DNA of 20,412 nt from IMG/VR virus record IMGVR_UViG_3300027985_000659, positions 1 through 20,412 of that record; one strand, written 5' to 3'. The notes under the pieces are model-generated. The model was not told the DNA's origin, did not search any database, and was given only the letters and a program-made list of their open reading frames with translations. Of the stretch, positions 10,898-20,160 are shown one piece after another. The first letter of the stretch is position 1, and each line of letters opens with the position of its first letter. The stretch comes from a virus. Both the position numbers and the translations under genes were made by a program.

Positions 10898-11284
10898 ATG
10901 ATAGACTTTAATAAATCTTCAAAATATGATTATAGTACACATAAAGAAATTCATCAAATTATATACAATATATTAGCACCTGAATTTAATATCCGTGATT
11001 TTAGAAGAGTTCTAAAAAGAGCTGTGGTTAATTATAGATGTGATAAAGGAATAGCATTATCAAGAGAAGGATTTGAAATTTTAAAAGAAAAAGGTCCATG
11101 GAAGTTCTGTCAATTCCCTTTTGAAATAAAATTCTTTGATTCAAAATTTATGCTGATTTTAGATCAAGCATCATCACCGTATTTTATAGATTCAAATAAA
11201 ACACTGTGGCTATCGGACGAAATACAAATAACACAATTTTCACTTACTGATAACCAAAATGAATTTCTAAATAGTTTGAAATAA
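10898..11284 (+). CDS. Unrecognised 128-aa phage protein
   Basis: AAGGA precedes the ATG, 14 nt after the terminator T tract. The protein has a helical N-terminal half with HKEIHQIIYNILAPEFNIRD followed by a basic segment RRVLKRAVVNYR. The C-terminal half is beta-rich with many aromatic residues (PWKFCQFPFEIKFFDSKFML). No enzyme motif, signal peptide or membrane segment is evident. Arginine codons are mostly AGA, as in the structural genes to its left and unlike the genes to its right. No promoter of its own is obvious, so it probably depends on read-through. Function unknown. Confidence 0.72.
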   Translation: MIDFNKSSKYDYSTHKEIHQIIYNILAPEFNIRDFRRVLKRAVVNYRCDKGIALSREGFEILKEKGPWKFCQFPFEIKFFDSKFMLILDQASSPYFIDSNKTLWLSDEIQITQFSLTDNQNEFLNSLK

Positions 11285-11306: not shown

Positions 11307-11385
11307 CATGCTCCTGTATGTTAAATTAAATTGTAGCAAGCAAAACTCGCTGCATCCAATTAATTTTTATATAGGAAATTCTGTA

Positions 11386-12768
11386 ATGAAATCACAGTTT
11401 AAAACTCCGTTAAAACCATCTGAATTACTGTTAGCAATGAACTTAGCTCATAAAGCGCGTCGTTCAGTTATGGTTTGGGGAGCACCTGGTATTGGTAAAT
11501 CAGATATTGCACGTCAATTTGCTGATTATCGTTTCCCATTAGTTGAGCGAGAAGTTTCAGAAGAATCTTTAGAAGCTGAAGAGCAAGTTGCTACAATGCT
11601 AGAAGAAGCATCAGCGGATAGTACTTCACGTGCACCAAAACGCAAAACAGCAAAATTAAGTACCAAATATCCAGTTCTTAACCAAACACATAACATCGTG
11701 GACTTGCGTTTAGCACAAGTTGAACCAACTGACTTACGTGGTATTCCTGTACCAGTTAAGTTTTATGTCGATGCTGAAGGTAAATTTGTACCAGATGCAG
11801 TAATTAGTAAACTGTTAGCTGAAAATAAAGATATCAGTTCGTACACTCAGAAAAACCAAGTTGTTTGGGCACCACCTGCATTGTTGGACTTACCAGCAAC
11901 ATGGGAAGGCGTTATTTTCATGGATGAAGCTAACCAAGCGATTCCAGTAGTACAAGCTGCTGCATACCAGCTGTTCTTGGATCGTCGTATTGGTGAATTA
12001 GTTCTTCCTCAAGGCGCGTTTGTATTAGCTGCTGGTAACCGTGAAGGCGATGGTGGCGTAACATTTAAGTTAGCATTGCCACTGCGTGACCGTATGACTC
12101 ACATTGAGTTAAAACCAGATTTTGAAGAATGGAAATCCAACTACGCAATTCGTAAGCAAGTGCATCCTATGGTTGTTGGTTACTTAGCTACAAACACCAA
12201 AGACTTTAACACACTGAGCACTGACGATAAAAATATTTGTGGTGGCTCATCACCACGTTCATGGGTTACTGTTTCAGATTACTTGTACGAAGCTGAAGCT
12301 GATGGTATGGATCGTGATCAACGCCGCGTATTGTGGGCATTAATTGAAGGTACAGTAGGTGACGATATTACAGGTCGCTTTAAGACTTTCTACGAGAACG
12401 TTGCAAAATTACCTTCAACAATGGATATCCTTAACGGCAAGATTACTGATCTTAGCGCGTATAAAGCGGATATGGACATTTCAAAAGGATTCACTGTATG
12501 CTTGAACTTAGCGTACAAAATTATTAGCACACACGAAGAAGTTAAGTCAGGTGGTGCGTTTGAAACTACACTTAACAAATGGTACGACAACATGTTGCGT
12601 TTCTTACACGCTTCATTTGATGAAGAGCCAGAATTAATCATGATGGCAATGAAAACTATGTACATGCAGAAAATTTACATGTCACCATCAAAAATTCCTT
12701 ACTTCAAAACATTCTGTGGACGATATGCTAGTTTGTTGTTTAAATCACGCGAACAAGCATATTCTTAA
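11386..12768 (+). CDS. MoxR-type AAA+ ATPase
   Basis: Start placed at the ATG at 11386, behind TAGGAAA. An in-frame ATG at 11308 would add 26 residues with no ribosome-binding site and unlike the family. The 460-aa protein has a Walker A (GAPGIGKS, 32-39), a DLRLAQVEPTDLRGIP segment typical of this AAA_5/COG0714 group (about 106-121), Walker B with DEAN (VIFMDEAN, 176-183), sensor 1 (AAGN, N218) and an arginine-finger motif (LRDRM, 233-237). A ~50-residue charged insertion (52-102) separates Walker A from the next strand. MoxR ATPases form hexamers that act on a VWA-domain partner, and the next gene encodes exactly such a protein. All 23 arginine codons are CGN. Substrate unknown; assembly chaperone or remodeller is the best guess. 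Confidence 0.9.
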   Translation: MKSQFKTPLKPSELLLAMNLAHKARRSVMVWGAPGIGKSDIARQFADYRFPLVEREVSEESLEAEEQVATMLEEASADSTSRAPKRKTAKLSTKYPVLNQTHNIVDLRLAQVEPTDLRGIPVPVKFYVDAEGKFVPDAVISKLLAENKDISSYTQKNQVVWAPPALLDLPATWEGVIFMDEANQAIPVVQAAAYQLFLDRRIGELVLPQGAFVLAAGNREGDGGVTFKLALPLRDRMTHIELKPDFEEWKSNYAIRKQVHPMVVGYLATNTKDFNTLSTDDKNICGGSSPRSWVTVSDYLYEAEADGMDRDQRRVLWALIEGTVGDDITGRFKTFYENVAKLPSTMDILNGKITDLSAYKADMDISKGFTVCLNLAYKIISTHEEVKSGGAFETTLNKWYDNMLRFLHASFDEEPELIMMAMKTMYMQKIYMSPSKIPYFKTFCGRYASLLFKSREQAYS

Positions 12769-12781
12769 TCTTTTTGTTATT

Positions 12782-12807
12782 AAAAGGGCGCATTTGCGCC
12801 CTTTTTT
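12782..12807 (+). terminator. Intrinsic terminator between the ATPase and VWA genes
   Basis: AAAAGGGCGC (12782-12791), loop ATTT, GCGCCCTTTT (12796-12805), with six T residues (12802-12807). It sits in a 57-nt gap with no visible promoter after it, so the downstream partner gene must rely on read-through. Confidence 0.88.
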
Positions 12808-12825
12808 CATTTATAAGGATCAAAT

Positions 12826-14202
12826 ATGAGTAAACAGCCACACACTACTGCTGTACCTGATAATACAAATAAACCAATTGAAATTAAACCAGTTTCAAAA
12901 GAGTTATCAAATGAATGCTTAGAGCGCATTCGTATTGCTCGTATTGCATTGTTAACTGAGTGTCCATTCTTTGGTATTATTGGTTCGCAATTAAAATTAG
13001 TAGAAGATAACATTCGTTGTAGCACTATGGCAACTGATGGTAAGAACTTCTATTACAATGTGCGTTTTACAATGGGTGTACCACCAGGAGAAGAACGCGA
13101 TGATTATGAAGCTCAAATCCGAGAACGTTTTCCTGACGCAACAGAAGAGCAAATTAGTGAATCACTTGATGGTTTAAGTGATGGTAATTTACGTGCTGCT
13201 ATTGTGCATGAAATCTTGCACTGTATGATGAACCATTTTATTCGTCGTAACGGACGTGATCCTAAAAAATGGAACCGTGCAGCTGATTATGCAATTAATC
13301 AGATTATTAAACGTGAAGGAATTGGTGAACTCCGTAAAACATGGTTGTTTGATGAAAAATACGACCGTATGTCAGCTGAAGAAATTTACGACTTGCTTGA
13401 AGATCAAGATGGTGAAGGCCAAGGTGAATCATGGGATGAACACTATGTTGATGGATCTGGTGGCGATGGCGATACTAATAAAGGCAAAAAACGTGGCACC
13501 GTAGAATCTGTGTTTAGCGATATGTCAGATACTGATATGGAAGATAACATGGAATCATTCGATCAAACCATGCGCAACGCAGCGTTTAGTTCTGGTGTTC
13601 CTGAATCTTTGGGTGATTTATTCAAAGATATGACATCTTCTGTTATTGACTGGCGCAGCAAATTACGCCGTACCATTCAAGCGCTTATTAAACAGGATCA
13701 ATCATTTCAGCGACCTAATCGTCGTTCATGGAATATGGGAGTAATCTTCCCTGGTTTCTTGCCTGAAGAAACTATTAATATTGCAATTGCTATTGACTTG
13801 AGTGGTAGTATTAGCAACGCAATGGTTAAAGATTTCCTTGGGGAAATCTGGGGCATTACTGAACAATTCCCTCAGTTTAAAATTAAACTTATGTGTTTTG
13901 ATACTGAAGTGCATAACGTTCAAGATTTTACTGAAAATAATGTTGATGAAATCTTGCGTTACGATTTAGTTGGTGGTGGCGGAACAGTGTTTGACTGTGT
14001 ATGGAATCACATGAAAGAAACTGAATATGTTCCTGAACAAATTCTGTGGTTTACTGACGGTGAATGTTGGGGTGGTGGTGAAAACGGTGGTTGGGGTCCA
14101 AGCAACTACTGTGAAACATTATGGATTATTCACTCTAATCCTAAGTTGAAAGCGCCTTTTGGTGAAACAACTCACTACGAATATATTCCCGAAGCTGCAT
14201 AA
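12826..14202 (+). CDS. HExxH metallopeptidase-like plus VWA (MIDAS) protein, partner of the MoxR ATPase
   Basis: AAGGA precedes the ATG. The 458-aa protein has two parts. The N-terminal region holds a zinc-binding HEILH (128-132) preceded by a helix, then WNRAADYAIN (149-158), where D154 is the likely third ligand; this is the usual arrangement in DUF2201-type proteins. An acidic Gly-rich linker follows (about 190-245). The C-terminal VWA domain has a complete MIDAS: D324-L-S326-G-S328, T387 in GGGGT, and D411 in FTDGE. It pairs with the MoxR ATPase just upstream, as in RavA-ViaA and the MoxR/VWA pair of Acidianus two-tailed virus. All 25 arginine codons are CGN. Whether the HExxH part is an active protease or a metal-stabilised fold cannot be told. 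No signal peptide, so cytoplasmic. Confidence 0.88.
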   Translation: MSKQPHTTAVPDNTNKPIEIKPVSKELSNECLERIRIARIALLTECPFFGIIGSQLKLVEDNIRCSTMATDGKNFYYNVRFTMGVPPGEERDDYEAQIRERFPDATEEQISESLDGLSDGNLRAAIVHEILHCMMNHFIRRNGRDPKKWNRAADYAINQIIKREGIGELRKTWLFDEKYDRMSAEEIYDLLEDQDGEGQGESWDEHYVDGSGGDGDTNKGKKRGTVESVFSDMSDTDMEDNMESFDQTMRNAAFSSGVPESLGDLFKDMTSSVIDWRSKLRRTIQALIKQDQSFQRPNRRSWNMGVIFPGFLPEETINIAIAIDLSGSISNAMVKDFLGEIWGITEQFPQFKIKLMCFDTEVHNVQDFTENNVDEILRYDLVGGGGTVFDCVWNHMKETEYVPEQILWFTDGECWGGGENGGWGPSNYCETLWIIHSNPKLKAPFGETTHYEYIPEAA

Positions 14203-14220
14203 AACTCCTTCCTAAATCAG

Positions 14221-14271
14221 GTACCTCGTTAATATGTGTTATATTAACTCATAAGTTAATTAACGAGGTAC
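14221..14271 (+). promoter_or_regulatory. Long inverted repeat that pairs the ribosome-binding site of the next gene
   Basis: GTACCTCGTTAAT (14221-14233) is the exact reverse complement of ATTAACGAGGTAC (14259-14271). The GAGG at 14265-14268, the only ribosome-binding site for the ATG at 14278, lies in the right arm. A nested hairpin (14243-14249 with 14254-14260, loop CATA) partly overlaps it. An extended -10-like TGTTATATT lies at 14237-14245 inside the loop, so the repeat could instead be an operator; transcripts from there would lack the left arm. Confidence 0.6.
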
Positions 14272-14277
14272 TAAAAC

Positions 14278-14514
14278 ATGTCCGAACAAAAAACTCAAGC
14301 ATCACCTGAAATTACCCTTCCAGATTTAGTTAATGTTTATAACATTATGAAAGTTGCAATTGAACGCTCAGCGTTTAAAGCAGAAGAAGTTGGTGATGTT
14401 GGAGCAGTCTTTAATAAAATTGGCGCTTTCTTGAAAGCTGCTGAAGAAGTACAAAAACTCCAAGAACAAGCCGCAGCAGAATCCACTGACGCGCAGGAAG
14501 AAAAAGGCGAGTAA
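14278..14514 (+). CDS. Small helical phage protein (78 aa)
   Basis: The 78-aa protein starts 7 nt after the inverted repeat. Its core (about 15-62) reads LPDLVNVYNIMKVAIERSAF, then KAEEVGDVGAVFNKIGAFLK, which looks like a compact three-helix protein. A coiled-coil-like Glu/Gln/Ala-rich tail follows. From memory, short proteins with a similar layout (a hydrophobic first helix, R-x-A-F, E-E-V/L-x-x-V-G, K-I-x-x-F-L) are common in marine T4-like phages, where their role is unknown; I cannot verify this. It follows the MoxR/VWA pair and has its own hairpin-controlled start and its own terminator, whose stem begins inside the coding region. A regulatory subunit or adaptor is possible but unsupported. 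Confidence 0.75.
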   Translation: MSEQKTQASPEITLPDLVNVYNIMKVAIERSAFKAEEVGDVGAVFNKIGAFLKAAEEVQKLQEQAAAESTDAQEEKGE

Positions 14515-14542: not shown

Positions 14543-15229
14543 ATGGATAATCTAATTCGCCATCGTGCTGTTGTGCAAAATACTGGTACTCGTTGTGCTG
14601 TTGTTTTTCGTGAATTACCAGGCGATTCTGAACATTGTTTAGTAATCGAATCTGATTCACTACCTGAAATCTATCGAGATGAAGTTAATAGTGTTATTAA
14701 CAAAGAAGGGCAAAAAACAAAAGATTTATATGAAGTTTTGAATATCTCTGTTATGCCAACTGGTGAGAATATGCTCCGTGCATTACATGAACATAAACTT
14801 TTGTTACGCAAAGAAACATCTAATATTATGATGCAAGTAACATCATCTGATACTATTCGTTTAGATAAATTAAATGATCAACTCCGAGCACTTACTGATG
14901 GAGCTACAATTAAACAGCCAACAGATATTCAAGCTAAATTAAATCCGTACGAAGAAGTTAATGATGCAATTCAAAACGAAGATTCAATGAATATTGCTAA
15001 AAATTTACTTGTTCAAGCTAATGATTTAGAGCATGAAGTTTCTAAGAAGCGTGAACGTGCTTATGCGTTACGGCCAGAATTAAAACCGCAAGCTACTCCA
15101 TTAACTGAAGCTGAAGATTCATTTGTGTTTACAGTAAACGTTAAAAATCGCTCAGAACGAGAAGTAGTTCAAGAATTAAAAAAATTCATTAAAAGTATGC
15201 CTACTGTAGATACTACAAAAGGTGAATAA
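14543..15229 (+). CDS. Unrecognised 228-aa phage protein
   Basis: AGGGAG precedes the ATG. The N-terminal ~100 residues look like an alpha/beta domain that begins HRAVVQNTGTRCAVVFRELP and includes HCLVIESDSLPEIYRDEV. The middle (about 100-150) is a linker or helix, then a coiled-coil-like helix, AKNLLVQANDLEHEVSKKRE (about 152-171), and a C-terminal strand-helix (FVFTVNVKNRSEREVVQELK). No catalytic motif is seen. It shares the CGN-only arginine use of the MoxR/VWA block (14 of 14 codons), which suggests common origin or common expression with that block. Its leader holds no promoter, so transcription must read through the terminator at 14502-14523. Function unknown. Confidence 0.82.
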   Translation: MDNLIRHRAVVQNTGTRCAVVFRELPGDSEHCLVIESDSLPEIYRDEVNSVINKEGQKTKDLYEVLNISVMPTGENMLRALHEHKLLLRKETSNIMMQVTSSDTIRLDKLNDQLRALTDGATIKQPTDIQAKLNPYEEVNDAIQNEDSMNIAKNLLVQANDLEHEVSKKRERAYALRPELKPQATPLTEAEDSFVFTVNVKNRSEREVVQELKKFIKSMPTVDTTKGE

Positions 15230-15231
15230 AT

Positions 15232-15561
15232 ATGTCTTGGTTTGAACACACTAAAACAAATGGAGCTATTGCAAATAGCTCCACTGCTAATACTTCAAAT
15301 TATAATAACATTTATGGTTATATTACTGATGCAAATACTGTCGGAGTATCAACTAGCACATCAACTAAAAGTGGCCCAACATTAGTAGTCGGTAAATCAA
15401 CTTTTGATGGAGATAATGGTGTAATTACATATACTGATGCAGACGGAAAAACTATAGTATTTGATTTTAAAAAAGAGCACCAAGTTAGATTAATAATGGA
15501 TGAACTCAGAGAACACTTTCCTGAAGCACTATTTCATTTAATTATGAAAGGAATTATATGA
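15232..15561 (+). CDS. Small unrecognised protein (109 aa)
   Basis: AAGGTG lies before the ATG, which is 2 nt after the upstream stop. The N-terminal half (about 1-55) is low complexity, rich in T, N, S and G ([20 protein letters not shown]). The C-terminal half is more structured: a beta hairpin ([20 protein letters not shown]) and a helix ([20 protein letters not shown]). The final ATGA overlaps the thymidylate synthase start, so the two are translationally coupled. A perfect 10-bp hairpin lies at 15261-15283 within the coding region. Function unknown. Confidence 0.75.
15261..15283 (+). repeat. Perfect 10-bp inverted repeat inside the 109-aa gene
   Basis: TGGAGCTATT (15261-15270) and AATAGCTCCA (15274-15283) are exact reverse complements separated by GCA. 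The hairpin starts 30 nt into the coding region, has no T tract after it, and encodes NGAIANSS. Confidence 0.6.
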
Positions 15562-16409
15562 AACAATATATTGATTTAGGTAACCGTATTGTTAATGAAG
15601 GTACATGGATAGAAAATGCTCGTACTGGAAAAAAATGTTTAACCTTAATTAATGCTGAACTTCAATATGATGTTAAAGGTGGAGTATTTCCACTCTTAAC
15701 TACTAGAAAGAGTTATTATAAATCAGCAATTGCTGAACTTCTAGGATATATTAGAGGATATACATCCGCTGCTGATTTTCGCAAATTGGGTACAAAAACT
15801 TGGGATGCTAATGCTAACGAAAACCAAGAATGGTTAAAAAATCCAGCACGTAAAGGCGAAGATGATATGGGCTTCGTTTATGGATCAGTAGCTAGAAATT
15901 GGCCAGGATATGATGGTAAGCCAATTGATCTATTAGCTGGAATTGTAAAAGACTTAACTAATGGTATTGATAACCGAGGTGAAATTTTAACTTTTTATAA
16001 TCCTGGTGTATTTGATATTGGTTGTTTAAGACCATGTATGCACACTCATACATTTTCATTAGTTAACGATGATTTATATTTAACAAGTTATCAGCGTTCT
16101 TGTGATGTACCATTAGGTTTGAATTTTAATCAAGTTCAAGTTTATGTATTGCTCGCATTAATGGCGCAAATCACTGGAAAAAATGCATGTACTGCCTTTC
16201 ATAAAATTGTAAATGCTCATGTTTATGAAGATCAATATGATTTGTTTAAAAATGTTCATTTAATTCGTGAGCCACTAAAATCACCTAAATTGATTATTAA
16301 TCCTGATATTAAATCATTAGAAGATTTGGAAACTTGGGTTACAGTTGATGATTTTAAAGTTGAAGATTACCAATCTCACGGACCTATAAATTATCCATTT
16401 TCAGTGTAA
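15558..16409 (+). CDS. thyA: Thymidylate synthase (ThyA family)
   Basis: Converts dUMP to dTMP with methylenetetrahydrofolate, supplying thymidine for phage DNA synthesis. The 283-aa protein is full length (T4 Td is 286 aa). Catalytic Cys is C160 in LRPCMH. The dUMP-binding residues follow with a constant offset of 14 from E. coli: Q179-R180-S181 in YQRSCD, D183, N191 in NFNQ, and H221 with Y223 in AHVYED. N191 favours dUMP over dCMP, which argues against dCMP hydroxymethylase. R22 and E60 correspond to E. coli R21 and E58. The C-terminal GPINYPFSV is intact. The segment after TW82 is longer than in E. coli. No intron interrupts it. ATGA overlap with the preceding gene; AAGGA as ribosome-binding site. 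Confidence 0.95.
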
Positions 16410-16440: not shown

Positions 16441-19400
16441 TTATACGGTTGGCATTATACTATGCCTCCATTCACCTGAAATAACTTTTGATGCATCTGA
16501 TGCGTTATATAAAATATACCCACCATAAGTCATTGTAATCTCTCCTGGTGCTGGAAAATTATTACTCATTGCGTTAATGGCGCATAATTCACCATTTAAA
16601 TACATAGGTCTTAAACCTAAGGTATAAAGATACATATGTAAATAACAGAAGTTACTATCCCATATACCAGTACCGCTACTATCACCTACTGCTACCTTTT
16701 GTAAATAATCAGTTCCGTATAATTTAATACCCCACGCACTAACTCCTCTTGTATAACCACTATTTGAGCCACGTATAGTAAACGAAGCTGGTACAAAATA
16801 ATTTGTATCAGTATCACTAACTGCGCAAGTATAAATTACAATATCATTATATATGATATCAACTGTTACTGCTCCTGTACCAGAATCAATATTCTTAATC
16901 ATTCTCCATTGTATTTTGGGATCGTAATCATCGATGGTTGTTGTTAGAACTAAAGATCCTGCTTTGTATACTTTACAGTTGACAACCTTTGCTGTCGCAA
17001 GAGTACTACTTCTAGGATATTGGATGTTAACAGCACAAAAAGTTGATGTATCTGAGGTAAAATCACCGCCGCTTGCTACTAGTGCATCAGTAGTAGTTAT
17101 ATCTTTATACATAAACCCGAAACCTTGGGAATACTGATCTAATAAATCATGGGAGTCATCATATCCTGATCCGGACGATAAGTAAAATGTAAGTTTAAAA
17201 TCGTCTTTAATTAAATATGGCCACATAGTAACACTTGAATTATTATTTCTTTCCCAGTCTCTTCCTATAGTAGTACATTGCCCAGCAGGCATAAAATCCT
17301 TGAATGCTTCGTTCCAATTCCAAACTCGTATTGATTCACCACTTAATACATTAGCATACGGTGTTGGTAACGTGCTAGGAGTAAATGTATCTCCTCCTGC
17401 GCTTATGCTACTTTCAATATATTGTGTTAACGTAAAAGACGTACTATCGTCTTTGAAAATTCCATCAAAAATATAAGTATAGAAATAATCGTCTACTGTA
17501 AAGTCAGTAATATCGTTATTGTACCCAGTCCAATCTAAGCGTAGATTAGTGGGCATTATATCAGTTGTTTCAGATGTTGCTTTATAAGTACTAACATCAG
17601 TTGTCCAGTTTGAACCGTCCCAACCATAAGTATCCCAAACATGAGGTTCCCATAAAGTACCACTACAATCAGATCCATTAACAACATCCCAACCAAAATA
17701 TGCGTAGCATATATTACTGCTCATCCATGTGAATAACCCCCTACCAATATACCAACCTGATGCGTTATAAGTTGTATCATTTATTTTAAATAGTTGCGTC
17801 GGATCATATGTAGCACTATCTATTAATGGTAGATTATCGAGATATCCAACATTTACTATCCATGATTGATTTGCATACGAACTATTAGAAGTACTAGTAG
17901 CATTTGTGTGCATAATATACTGAGGGATTCCATTAACAAATTTTCTTGTTGGGATAAACATAGGACAACGTTGATCGTACCAAGAACCAGTTCTTGTTGA
18001 ACATATATAATAATAATCTGCTATTGTAGTATTATTATGATTAGTATAGTATAAACGCTTTGTGATTTGGTTTCCAAACGCAGCAAAATACCATATACCA
18101 TCATAACAAAAAACAGCCCACTGCCATCCCCATCGAATATTCATTCCTGCTGGCACTGACACTATTGTTGATATTTGTGTTGATAAGCTATACCATACAC
18201 CTTGACCTAGCATTACACTAGATGAACTATAAATCACAGGATCTGAACCGTAATAACCTTGATTATCGATAATATATGAATTATTGTGTGGCGAGCTAGG
18301 ATAATTAATAAATAAGTTTTCACTTTCTGATGTCGGATCACAAACTATTCCATAAATGTTTGTATTTGCTAATTCAACTGTTAAATTTGTTACACTAAAA
18401 GCATCATCAACTAACCAAGTACTTCCTTGATCGATTGATGTTGCTAATTGCATCCCGAACAATGCATACCATTTTTTTGTTATATCTAAGTTTGCATCAT
18501 AATCAAAAACACAAAAACCGTTACAATTATCAGGGACATCAACATTGTTTGGGATAATCTGTTCAACTATTGCAGTATTGTATCCTATAGATCCGAATGT
18601 TCTTGATATTTTCCATAATCCTGTATTACCACACGCAATTATAATAGTACTATTATCTCCGTTTTCAAATTGCCTAATTTGTTTTATATTGCTAACTGGC
18701 AAGGCTGGTGAGCTATTACTATCAAATACAATAGGGTCAATTTCTGGGTTTGTGTTATAAATTACTAAACCTGATAAATTGTATGTTATAAATTCCGGAA
18801 AATGGTATTCAATTTGTAAATTATTATGAGAAGTATGATCAGTAATTTGCATTTTATTACCATCAACATCACTAGTTGAATCAAGAATTCTAGGCAACGC
18901 AATCCCATCAGGTTTGTAAGTAATAATTGAACTATTAAATGCAGTATAATATCTTGTTTGTACATTATACTCAGCTGTTCCTATAGCACCACTCGATTTA
19001 ATGTTTATCTTTTGGCACTCAACGATACCTTTACTATTATAATTAGTAAGATCTGATTCTAATTCTCTATCAGTTATGCTTGGTAATGCTACTCCGTTTG
19101 GTATTGATGTAGTATCAAGAAATGGTGCGGTTGACAAAGATAGGTTTGTTTTTCCAAATGTGCTTTGAACTACTGTGTCCTGTGGTCTTCTAATTTTCTT
19201 TTGATTTTTTGCCCACCCATCACTATATCTTCTGTATATATATGACCCAAATGGTTTTCCTGGTAAATCAGCTAGTGCTGTAGTTTGTGTTCCTGTATAT
19301 ACCATATCTACATTATAACACGAATTAAGAGTTGTTTCTTTGTATGATGGTAAATCGTTTCTTGTCATTTCTGGTAAAGGCTCGTATGGTGCAGCAATAG

Positions 19401-20160
19401 CTTTCATATAATACGGATTATGCCATTCTGAACCCCATGAACTATTGGATAACGAGCTATTAATATTATTACTACGCTCATTAGTTAACATCCAAATAAA
19501 TGCACTTGACGGATAAAACGATGGTGAATATTTTGATACATCTTGTTCAAATAAAATTCTGTATTTGATTACTAAAATTTCATCAGGATATTGATAGCAA
19601 GGCGAATCTAATTGCACTATTGATACTACTGGTTTGCAGCGATAACTATAGGTTACGTAATTATTATACAAATGTATAGTATTAATTTCTCTTGTTATAG
19701 TTGATGGAGGCTCAAAACGTCTTGTATAAACACAGCTACCAGGAGAAGTCTCAGTAGGAGCGGTGTACACAGGAAATGTAGATCCACTAATCCAATTGCC
19801 TACAATTAAATCATAATTATCGTTAACCGCGGAAGAGTTATAGTAATCGTAACATATATTAATTTCTGGGCCGTAGTATTTTCTTGTGCTTATTGCCATG
19901 TTAAACCCTAAGCGCCATACGTCCCAATAATGAATACCGGAATAATAAACACCATCAATTGTTGCGTAGGATGTGCTATAATCTTGACCTCCACAACCAG
20001 CACCAATAATATTACTTTTATACATAAATCCATTGTGTATTGTGTTTTGATGTTCCTCTTCTGATATTAAATCACCACATTGCAATTCACCATTTTCGTC
20101 TTTTATTGCTTTATATTTTTGGATAGTATAAAAACCAGTTATATCTTTTTTCTGTTCCAT
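16441..20160 (-). CDS. Large putative receptor-binding/tail fibre protein with BNR and lectin-like regions
   Basis: The 1239-aa protein starts at 20160 on the minus strand behind an AGGAT site that lies in the last codons of the small upstream ORF. No signal peptide. Residues ~350-435 hold two copies of a G-[VI]-A-L-P-x-I-x-D motif about 63 residues apart. Residues 575-582 read SIDQGSTW, an exact Asp-box (S-x-D-x-G-x-T-W) as in BNR beta-propellers. Around 838-905 is WDTYGWDGSNW followed by a beta-rich segment with DYFYTYIFDGIFKDD. Residues ~985-1150 resemble an L-type lectin/concanavalin jelly roll (DDFKLTFYLSSGSG, GFGFMYKD, IQWRMIKNIDSGTGAVTVDI). Aromatic, S/T/N/Y-rich composition fits an exposed virion adhesin. 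It is oriented against the tail genes. Receptor binding is inference; another large surface protein is possible. Confidence 0.72.
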   Translation of the reverse strand: MEQKKDITGFYTIQKYKAIKDENGELQCGDLISEEEHQNTIHNGFMYKSNIIGAGCGGQDYSTSYATIDGVYYSGIHYWDVWRLGFNMAISTRKYYGPEINICYDYYNSSAVNDNYDLIVGNWISGSTFPVYTAPTETSPGSCVYTRRFEPPSTITREINTIHLYNNYVTYSYRCKPVVSIVQLDSPCYQYPDEILVIKYRILFEQDVSKYSPSFYPSSAFIWMLTNERSNNINSSLSNSSWGSEWHNPYYMKAIAAPYEPLPEMTRNDLPSYKETTLNSCYNVDMVYTGTQTTALADLPGKPFGSYIYRRYSDGWAKNQKKIRRPQDTVVQSTFGKTNLSLSTAPFLDTTSIPNGVALPSITDRELESDLTNYNSKGIVECQKINIKSSGAIGTAEYNVQTRYYTAFNSSIITYKPDGIALPRILDSTSDVDGNKMQITDHTSHNNLQIEYHFPEFITYNLSGLVIYNTNPEIDPIVFDSNSSPALPVSNIKQIRQFENGDNSTIIIACGNTGLWKISRTFGSIGYNTAIVEQIIPNNVDVPDNCNGFCVFDYDANLDITKKWYALFGMQLATSIDQGSTWLVDDAFSVTNLTVELANTNIYGIVCDPTSESENLFINYPSSPHNNSYIIDNQGYYGSDPVIYSSSSVMLGQGVWYSLSTQISTIVSVPAGMNIRWGWQWAVFCYDGIWYFAAFGNQITKRLYYTNHNNTTIADYYYICSTRTGSWYDQRCPMFIPTRKFVNGIPQYIMHTNATSTSNSSYANQSWIVNVGYLDNLPLIDSATYDPTQLFKINDTTYNASGWYIGRGLFTWMSSNICYAYFGWDVVNGSDCSGTLWEPHVWDTYGWDGSNWTTDVSTYKATSETTDIMPTNLRLDWTGYNNDITDFTVDDYFYTYIFDGIFKDDSTSFTLTQYIESSISAGGDTFTPSTLPTPYANVLSGESIRVWNWNEAFKDFMPAGQCTTIGRDWERNNNSSVTMWPYLIKDDFKLTFYLSSGSGYDDSHDLLDQYSQGFGFMYKDITTTDALVASGGDFTSDTSTFCAVNIQYPRSSTLATAKVVNCKVYKAGSLVLTTTIDDYDPKIQWRMIKNIDSGTGAVTVDIIYNDIVIYTCAVSDTDTNYFVPASFTIRGSNSGYTRGVSAWGIKLYGTDYLQKVAVGDSSGTGIWDSNFCYLHMYLYTLGLRPMYLNGELCAINAMSNNFPAPGEITMTYGGYILYNASDASKVISGEWRHSIMPTV

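Follow-up and report, generated by a model that had tools for sequence, protein, structure and literature searches.

The window analysed here, a virus fragment of 20,412 bases, carries a gene for a MoxR-class AAA+ ATPase and, directly downstream of it, a gene for a protein in which a putative metallopeptidase domain is fused to a VWA domain. We suggest that the two proteins probably constitute a remodelling machine resembling NorQD, in which an intrinsic terminator between the two genes limits synthesis of the partner so that several ATPases are made for each partner protein. The genes for tail sheath, tail tube, head-closure protein and thymidylate synthase occur in the window in the same order as in phages XaC1, SE_PL, RaK2, GAP32 and CBB, and the window therefore originates from a RaK2-like jumbo phage.

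Sequence and predicted structure of the two proteins

Both open reading frames are complete at the positions given in the original prediction (coordinates here and below refer to the plus strand unless stated otherwise). The ATPase (11386..12768; 460 aa) belongs to the N4 gp24 family and to PHROG 1297 (E 2e-85 in a PHROG profile search). An alternative ATG upstream at 11308 would add 26 residues; we prefer the start at 11386 because homologues in the clade of the window have lengths of 425-466 aa in our ORF survey and because an AGGA sequence is located approximately 10 nt 5' of this start. The proposed Walker A motif (GAPGIGKS, residues 32-39, 11479..11502), Walker B motif (DEAN, residues 180-183, 11923..11934), N218 and arginine residues are borne out by an alignment of 70 sequences in which K38, D180, E181, N218, D222, R236 and R291 are invariant. 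The charged insertion at residues 52-102 (11539..11691) is likewise real and is specific to the RaK2-like clade, the distance from Walker A to DxRL being 55-66 residues in nine RaK2-like members versus a median of 15 overall; AlphaFold predicts two helices for this insertion with moderate confidence.

The AlphaFold model of the ATPase (mean pLDDT 88.8) has its best PDB matches among NorQ and NorQ-NorD structures in Foldseek, with NorQ at ranks 1-4 (e.g. 9qh4) and CbbQ2 (6l1q) lower in the list; the TM-scores, taken by target length, are modest at 0.54-0.62. In the model, strand 2 (104-108) is separated from the Walker B strand (175-180) by two strands at residues 120-128 and 154-162, and this beta-hairpin would, as judged from secondary structure alone, fit the MoxR helix-2 insert as expected. 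Profile searches for DUF2201 and AAA_5, proposed as a check of the two assignments, gave a divided answer: the partner matches DUF2201 (5e-15), whereas the ATPase scores E 0.075 with AAA_5, which is below the cut-off, as are the other Pfam AAA models. Given that the PBS1 and S-TIM5 relatives of the ATPase pass AAA_5, we attribute this miss to divergence and not to membership of another family. On the strength of its modelled structure and its relatives rather than of Pfam, we place the ATPase in the MoxR class, NorQ and CbbQ being the solved structures that it matches best. PDB searches with the single sequences of the pair gave nothing significant, and those with alignments returned general AAA+ and VWA matches only.

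The partner protein (12826..14202; 458 aa) belongs to the N4 gp25 family and matches PHROG 1314 (E 1e-109) and DUF2201_N (1.8e-30) in profile searches. As judged from sequence, DUF2201_N is a putative zincin domain, which is followed by the VWA-like domain DUF2201. The predicted HEILH zinc-site motif (residues 128-132, 13207..13221) is confirmed by comparison with 98 relatives, in which H128, H132, H137 and D154 are present in 98/98 and E129 in 97/98; H137 and D154 are candidate further zinc ligands of the HExxH site. Similarly, the MIDAS, consisting of DxSGS at residues 324-328 (13795..13809) completed by T387 and D411, had been described as full, and D324, S326, S328, T387 and D411 are indeed kept in all 98 relatives. 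The AlphaFold model (mean pLDDT 82.6) matches isolated VWA domains, including the MIDAS domains of Rea1 and MDN1, and among the Foldseek matches listed for this model the fused metallopeptidase is absent from solved structures.

The Atu_ph07 protein ASV44728 (L002:11971-13257) has HQILH and is thus without the catalytic Glu kept by 97 of the 98 relatives, and the Phosso VWA protein has HEVLH. We considered loss of the catalytic Glu as an argument against peptidase activity and rejected it because the loss is found in Atu_ph07 alone (1/98). PHROG 1314 is labelled 'HNH endonuclease', and this label on the DUF2201 protein is a misannotation that has been copied into many phage records: Pfam finds no HNH family, and sequence and model both point to a zincin plus VWA protein. 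Correcting this misleading label, which has spread through phage databases, is one gain of the analysis.

Co-retention of the pair

In a set of 50,697 phage records, each of the two genes has approximately 780-790 matches, distributed over genera almost identically for the two, and both genes are present in 36 of 37 individually checked records (for L116-L120, presence of the VWA gene was taken from the phage-record survey). The one record that departs from this is a fragment of 37.8 kb, at the edge of which the VWA gene lies. In rV5-type and Mydovirus phages, the two genes are divergent and separated by approximately 4 kb, in Vibrio 1.097.O the distance is approximately 6 kb, and in Vibrio phage Va1 they are unlinked, lying approximately 45 kb apart round the circle. 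Relatives carrying one gene without the other in unlinked places had been named in advance as evidence against a joint function; unlinked cases exist, yet both genes are kept, and this co-retention despite separation argues for a shared function. In total, the NorQ and CbbQ matches, the co-occurrence in the checked records and the co-retention of unlinked genes support the claim that the MoxR and VWA proteins are dedicated partners.

Extra genes are inserted between the ATPase and VWA genes in approximately 19 loci (e.g. L003:13414-14925 and L107:10529-12025), and the PA5oct insert includes an annotated homing endonuclease. In the proteobacterial plasmids L114 and L115, an ATPase gene, a gene for a protein of approximately 300 aa and a DUF2201/VWA gene are arranged in a row. 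DUF2201_N was detected in 2 of 14 control genomes. An origin of the pair in cellular genomes was considered and rejected; one genome scan yielded a single contig with an N4-like copy that is probably phage or mis-binned DNA.

The scope of the original prediction, the T4 supergroup, is too narrow, because podoviruses as well as Bacillus and Staphylococcus jumbo phages also carry the pair. The hosts of the carriers extend from Enterobacteriaceae to Bacillus, Staphylococcus and cyanobacteria. A host range this wide would fit a machine directed at the host, one that takes apart or cleaves a host complex for takeover or counter-defence, and expression together with the middle genes is plausible in N4 from gene position. 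However, the near-universal retention within lineages and the strong conservation are unlike those of typical fast-changing counter-defence genes, and PADLOC gave no match to its defence-system models apart from DolB, which was hit weakly over 24 residues (E 0.0085). We consider a host-directed machine of this kind improbable.

A terminator between the two genes

A strong intrinsic terminator hairpin (AAAAGGGCGC-ATTT-GCGCCCTTTT, 12782..12805; z -4.8) is located between the ATPase stop at 12768 and the VWA start at 12826. Counting gaps of 30-200 nt, a terminator is present in 51 of 55 adjacent ATPase-VWA pairs (93%) versus 49 of the 289 remaining same-strand gaps of these loci (17%; Fisher p ~5e-28), and in 43 of 47 pairs after identical hairpins are collapsed (Fisher p ~7e-24), with the qualification that these p-values ignore kinship and that most terminator loci belong to a single broad clade and cannot be counted as independent. 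The expectation from dinucleotide shuffling is 1.2%, and upstream of the ATPase a terminator is present in 6 of 73 gaps (8%). The hairpin sequences vary among relatives while the structure is kept. Staphylococcus, Aeromonas and Certrevirus phages also have the terminator, as does one Cupriavidus plasmid after its ATPase gene, and in PA5oct and Vibrio 2.275.O it lies directly 3' of the ATPase gene despite an inserted gene before the VWA gene. A terminator was not found in the six N4-like loci examined (N4, Kc283, SBP1, PA26, V13 and L097) or in PBS1, S-TIM5, Slickus01, slur16 and Atu_ph07, and it is thus not needed everywhere.

In the simplest reading, the position of the terminator suggests that more ATPase than VWA partner is made, as would be expected for a hexamer with one partner. 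A comparable imbalance has been described in Escherichia coli, with approximately 350 molecules of RavA versus approximately 90 of ViaA per cell (PMC3893208). An excess of ATPase would also agree with the phAPEC6 virion proteome, which includes the ATPase but has no protein of the size and position of the VWA protein. In many Atu_ph07-like loci, the terminator is followed by a promoter-like sequence, and at these loci it may serve to set the two genes apart in time instead of in dose. Alternatively, the terminator is ordinary phage punctuation without a part in the partner ratio, given that 17% of the other same-strand gaps also hold a terminator-like site and that the promoter-like sequences would restore expression of the partner. 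The difference between 93% and 17%, the 8% just upstream of the ATPase, and the preservation of hairpin structure while sequences differ speak against punctuation, which we regard as a serious possibility that nevertheless falls short of an even chance. Conservation of a terminator at this position is apparently unreported, as we found no published mention of a terminator between MoxR and VWA genes in a non-exhaustive literature search.

Gene neighbourhood and the five-gene cassette

A synteny survey for conserved third partners had been suggested as a check, and in the 98 loci three further proteins recur. U128, a small conserved protein encoded directly upstream of the ATPase (10898..11284; PHROG 15638, 8.8e-11), has homologues in 68 of the 98 loci, usually adjoining the ATPase gene, whereas the small conserved protein D84 (14278..14514; PHROG 13789) and the conserved protein D214 (14543..15229; PHROG 15894) are encoded downstream of the pair and occur in 77 and 74 of these loci, respectively. 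A second strong hairpin, an inverted repeat with 13-bp arms, lies between the VWA and D84 genes (14220..14272; z -5.6). D214 is present in 56 public phage records, with almost all of the matches listed being jumbo phages. The order in jumbo phages is U128, ATPase, VWA, (D93), D84 and D214, often followed by thymidylate synthase. The cassette is unchanged whether the genes upstream are head/tail genes, as in the window, or polymerase genes, as in Atu_ph07-like phages, and thus behaves as a unit. Exceptions are Sinorhizobium phage Phosso, in which D84 and D214 are located approximately 15 kb from the pair, and PA5oct, in which they are on the other strand. The correlation of genetic distances between ATPase and VWA protein is no stronger than that of D214 with either; because all cassette genes correlate, we regard such a correlation of tree distances as uninformative about direct interaction and rejected it.

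In the window, the cassette is followed by the gene for the thymidylate synthase ThyA, an enzyme that needs no metal; the unrelated ThyX is found at the same place in relatives, and the two are exchanged at this one site in jumbo phages (window 15558..16409; L002:21943-22893; L006:8642-9313). Immediately beyond the thymidylate synthase gene, the minus strand encodes a protein of 1239 aa (16441-20160); in this position, relatives carry genes for tail fibres or beta-helix structural proteins. Thymidylate synthase lies near the pair in jumbo, S-TIM5 and N4-like phages, i.e. in three of about ten lineages; it is approximately 12 kb from the pair in Slickus01, unlinked in rV5-type, Mydovirus, Certrevirus, Aeromonas, Va1 and PA5oct phages, and was not found in PBS1 and AH12. 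As it is unlinked or not found in many lineages, we rejected thymidylate synthase as a universal partner. The same distribution bears on the idea that the pair supplies a phage metalloenzyme with its metal cofactor, in the manner of bacterial NorQD. NorQ, the closest structural relative, is a metal-insertion chaperone (PMC13036017) and nucleotide-metabolism genes are frequent neighbours of the pair; however, proximity in so few lineages, with ThyA and ThyX used interchangeably, and the failure to find a constant metalloenzyme partner make metal insertion very unlikely.

In RaK2-like phages including the window, the cassette is located between head/tail genes and tail fibres. This location would suit the proposal of Iyer et al. 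2021 (PMC7824862), in which the pair would be a virion-assembly chaperone that remodels head or tail proteins and uses its zincin domain to trim them. The ATPase was detected in a virion preparation of phAPEC6 (6 peptides, with a mass equal to that of the 121Q orthologue) and also in virion preparations of PA5oct and Staphylococcus phage DC4, and these mass-spectrometry detections are compatible with a part in virion assembly; moreover, ATV p618/p892 acts in tail development. On the other hand, the detections stem from evidently contaminated preparations, that of phAPEC6 also containing SSB, RecA, topoisomerase and thymidylate synthase. The structural-protein table of CBB includes the neighbouring CBB_213, 214 and 224, but both proteins of the pair are missing from it. 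Elsewhere, the contexts are those of replication or middle genes, with the pair adjoining polymerase, helicase, gyrase or nucleotide genes in Atu_ph07, N4, PBS1, Kc283, SBP1 and PA26, and the pair is common to short-tailed and contractile-tailed phages. The replication and nucleotide-gene settings fit a role in the middle phase at least as well as virion assembly, which we consider doubtful as the function of the pair.

Discussion

The pair had been put forward as an undescribed system. This does not hold, because the same pair with the metallopeptidase fusion was described in jumbo phages by Iyer et al. 2021, who proposed a function in virion assembly with peptidolysis (PMC7824862). A MoxR pair in 0305phi8-36 was noted in 2007, and gp24/gp25 have been described in N4-like phages and are core genes of the Schitoviridae; the main text of the RaK2 paper has nothing on these genes. 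Among the individual phages compared, Agrobacterium phage Atu_ph07, whose proteins ASV44729.1/ASV44728.2 served Iyer et al. as their example, shares with the window the architecture and order of the pair, at 38% and 37% identity, and the downstream D84 and D214 families, but it has HQILH instead of HExxH, is without the ATPase insertion and the terminator, and has the cassette beside polymerase genes and not head/tail genes. N4 gp24/gp25 are adjacent members of the same two families with a thymidylate synthase, ThyX, a few genes downstream; however, N4 is a podovirus, the identity is ~22-25%, a terminator was not found, and U128, D84 and D214 are absent.

Among better-characterized systems, NorQ-NorD and CbbQ-CbbO include the best solved matches of the ATPase and have a VWA partner with a full MIDAS, but their targets are cellular and metabolic. 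To our knowledge, neither NorD nor CbbO has a DUF2201_N zincin domain. RavA-ViaA is also a MoxR plus VWA pair, and we know of no zincin domain in ViaA; RavA is outside the best 50 Foldseek matches of the ATPase model. ATV p618/p892 resembles the pair in being a virus-encoded MoxR plus VWA pair but is from an archaeal virus and has no peptidase domain (PMC7824862), and its p618 is a major virion component.

By analogy with NorQD, in which the VWA protein holds the target while the ring twists or pulls it (PMC13036017), we suggest that the pair most likely works as follows: (i) the ATPase would form a hexameric ring, (ii) the VWA domain of the partner would bind the ring directly by docking on it and would hold the target through the MIDAS metal site, (iii) ATP hydrolysis would twist or pull the bound complex, and (iv) the fused zincin domain would then cleave, or sense, the exposed segment of the target. 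In most examined lineages outside the N4-like phages, the terminator after the ATPase gene would limit transcription into the partner gene, giving several ATPases per partner as a 6:1 assembly would need. As the target, we favor a phage or host complex that is used mid-infection over a tail-specific one because of the broad taxonomic spread of the pair and its usual setting among replication and nucleotide genes. In a wider and distinctly tentative proposal, which we think unlikely to hold in full, the conserved terminator would set the ratio of ATPase to co-chaperone across many large phages and also in at least one bacterial plasmid, and U128, D84 and D214 would be further components of a five-protein cassette.

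While the pair itself was described in 2021, the conserved terminator and the cassette are what this analysis adds and are worth following. The survey provides a clear cassette, a testable expression rule in the form of the terminator and a natural variant of the catalytic Glu. The pair is present in hundreds of cultured phages and is part of the core of a whole family, and N4 and the 121Q-type E. coli phages make its function directly testable.
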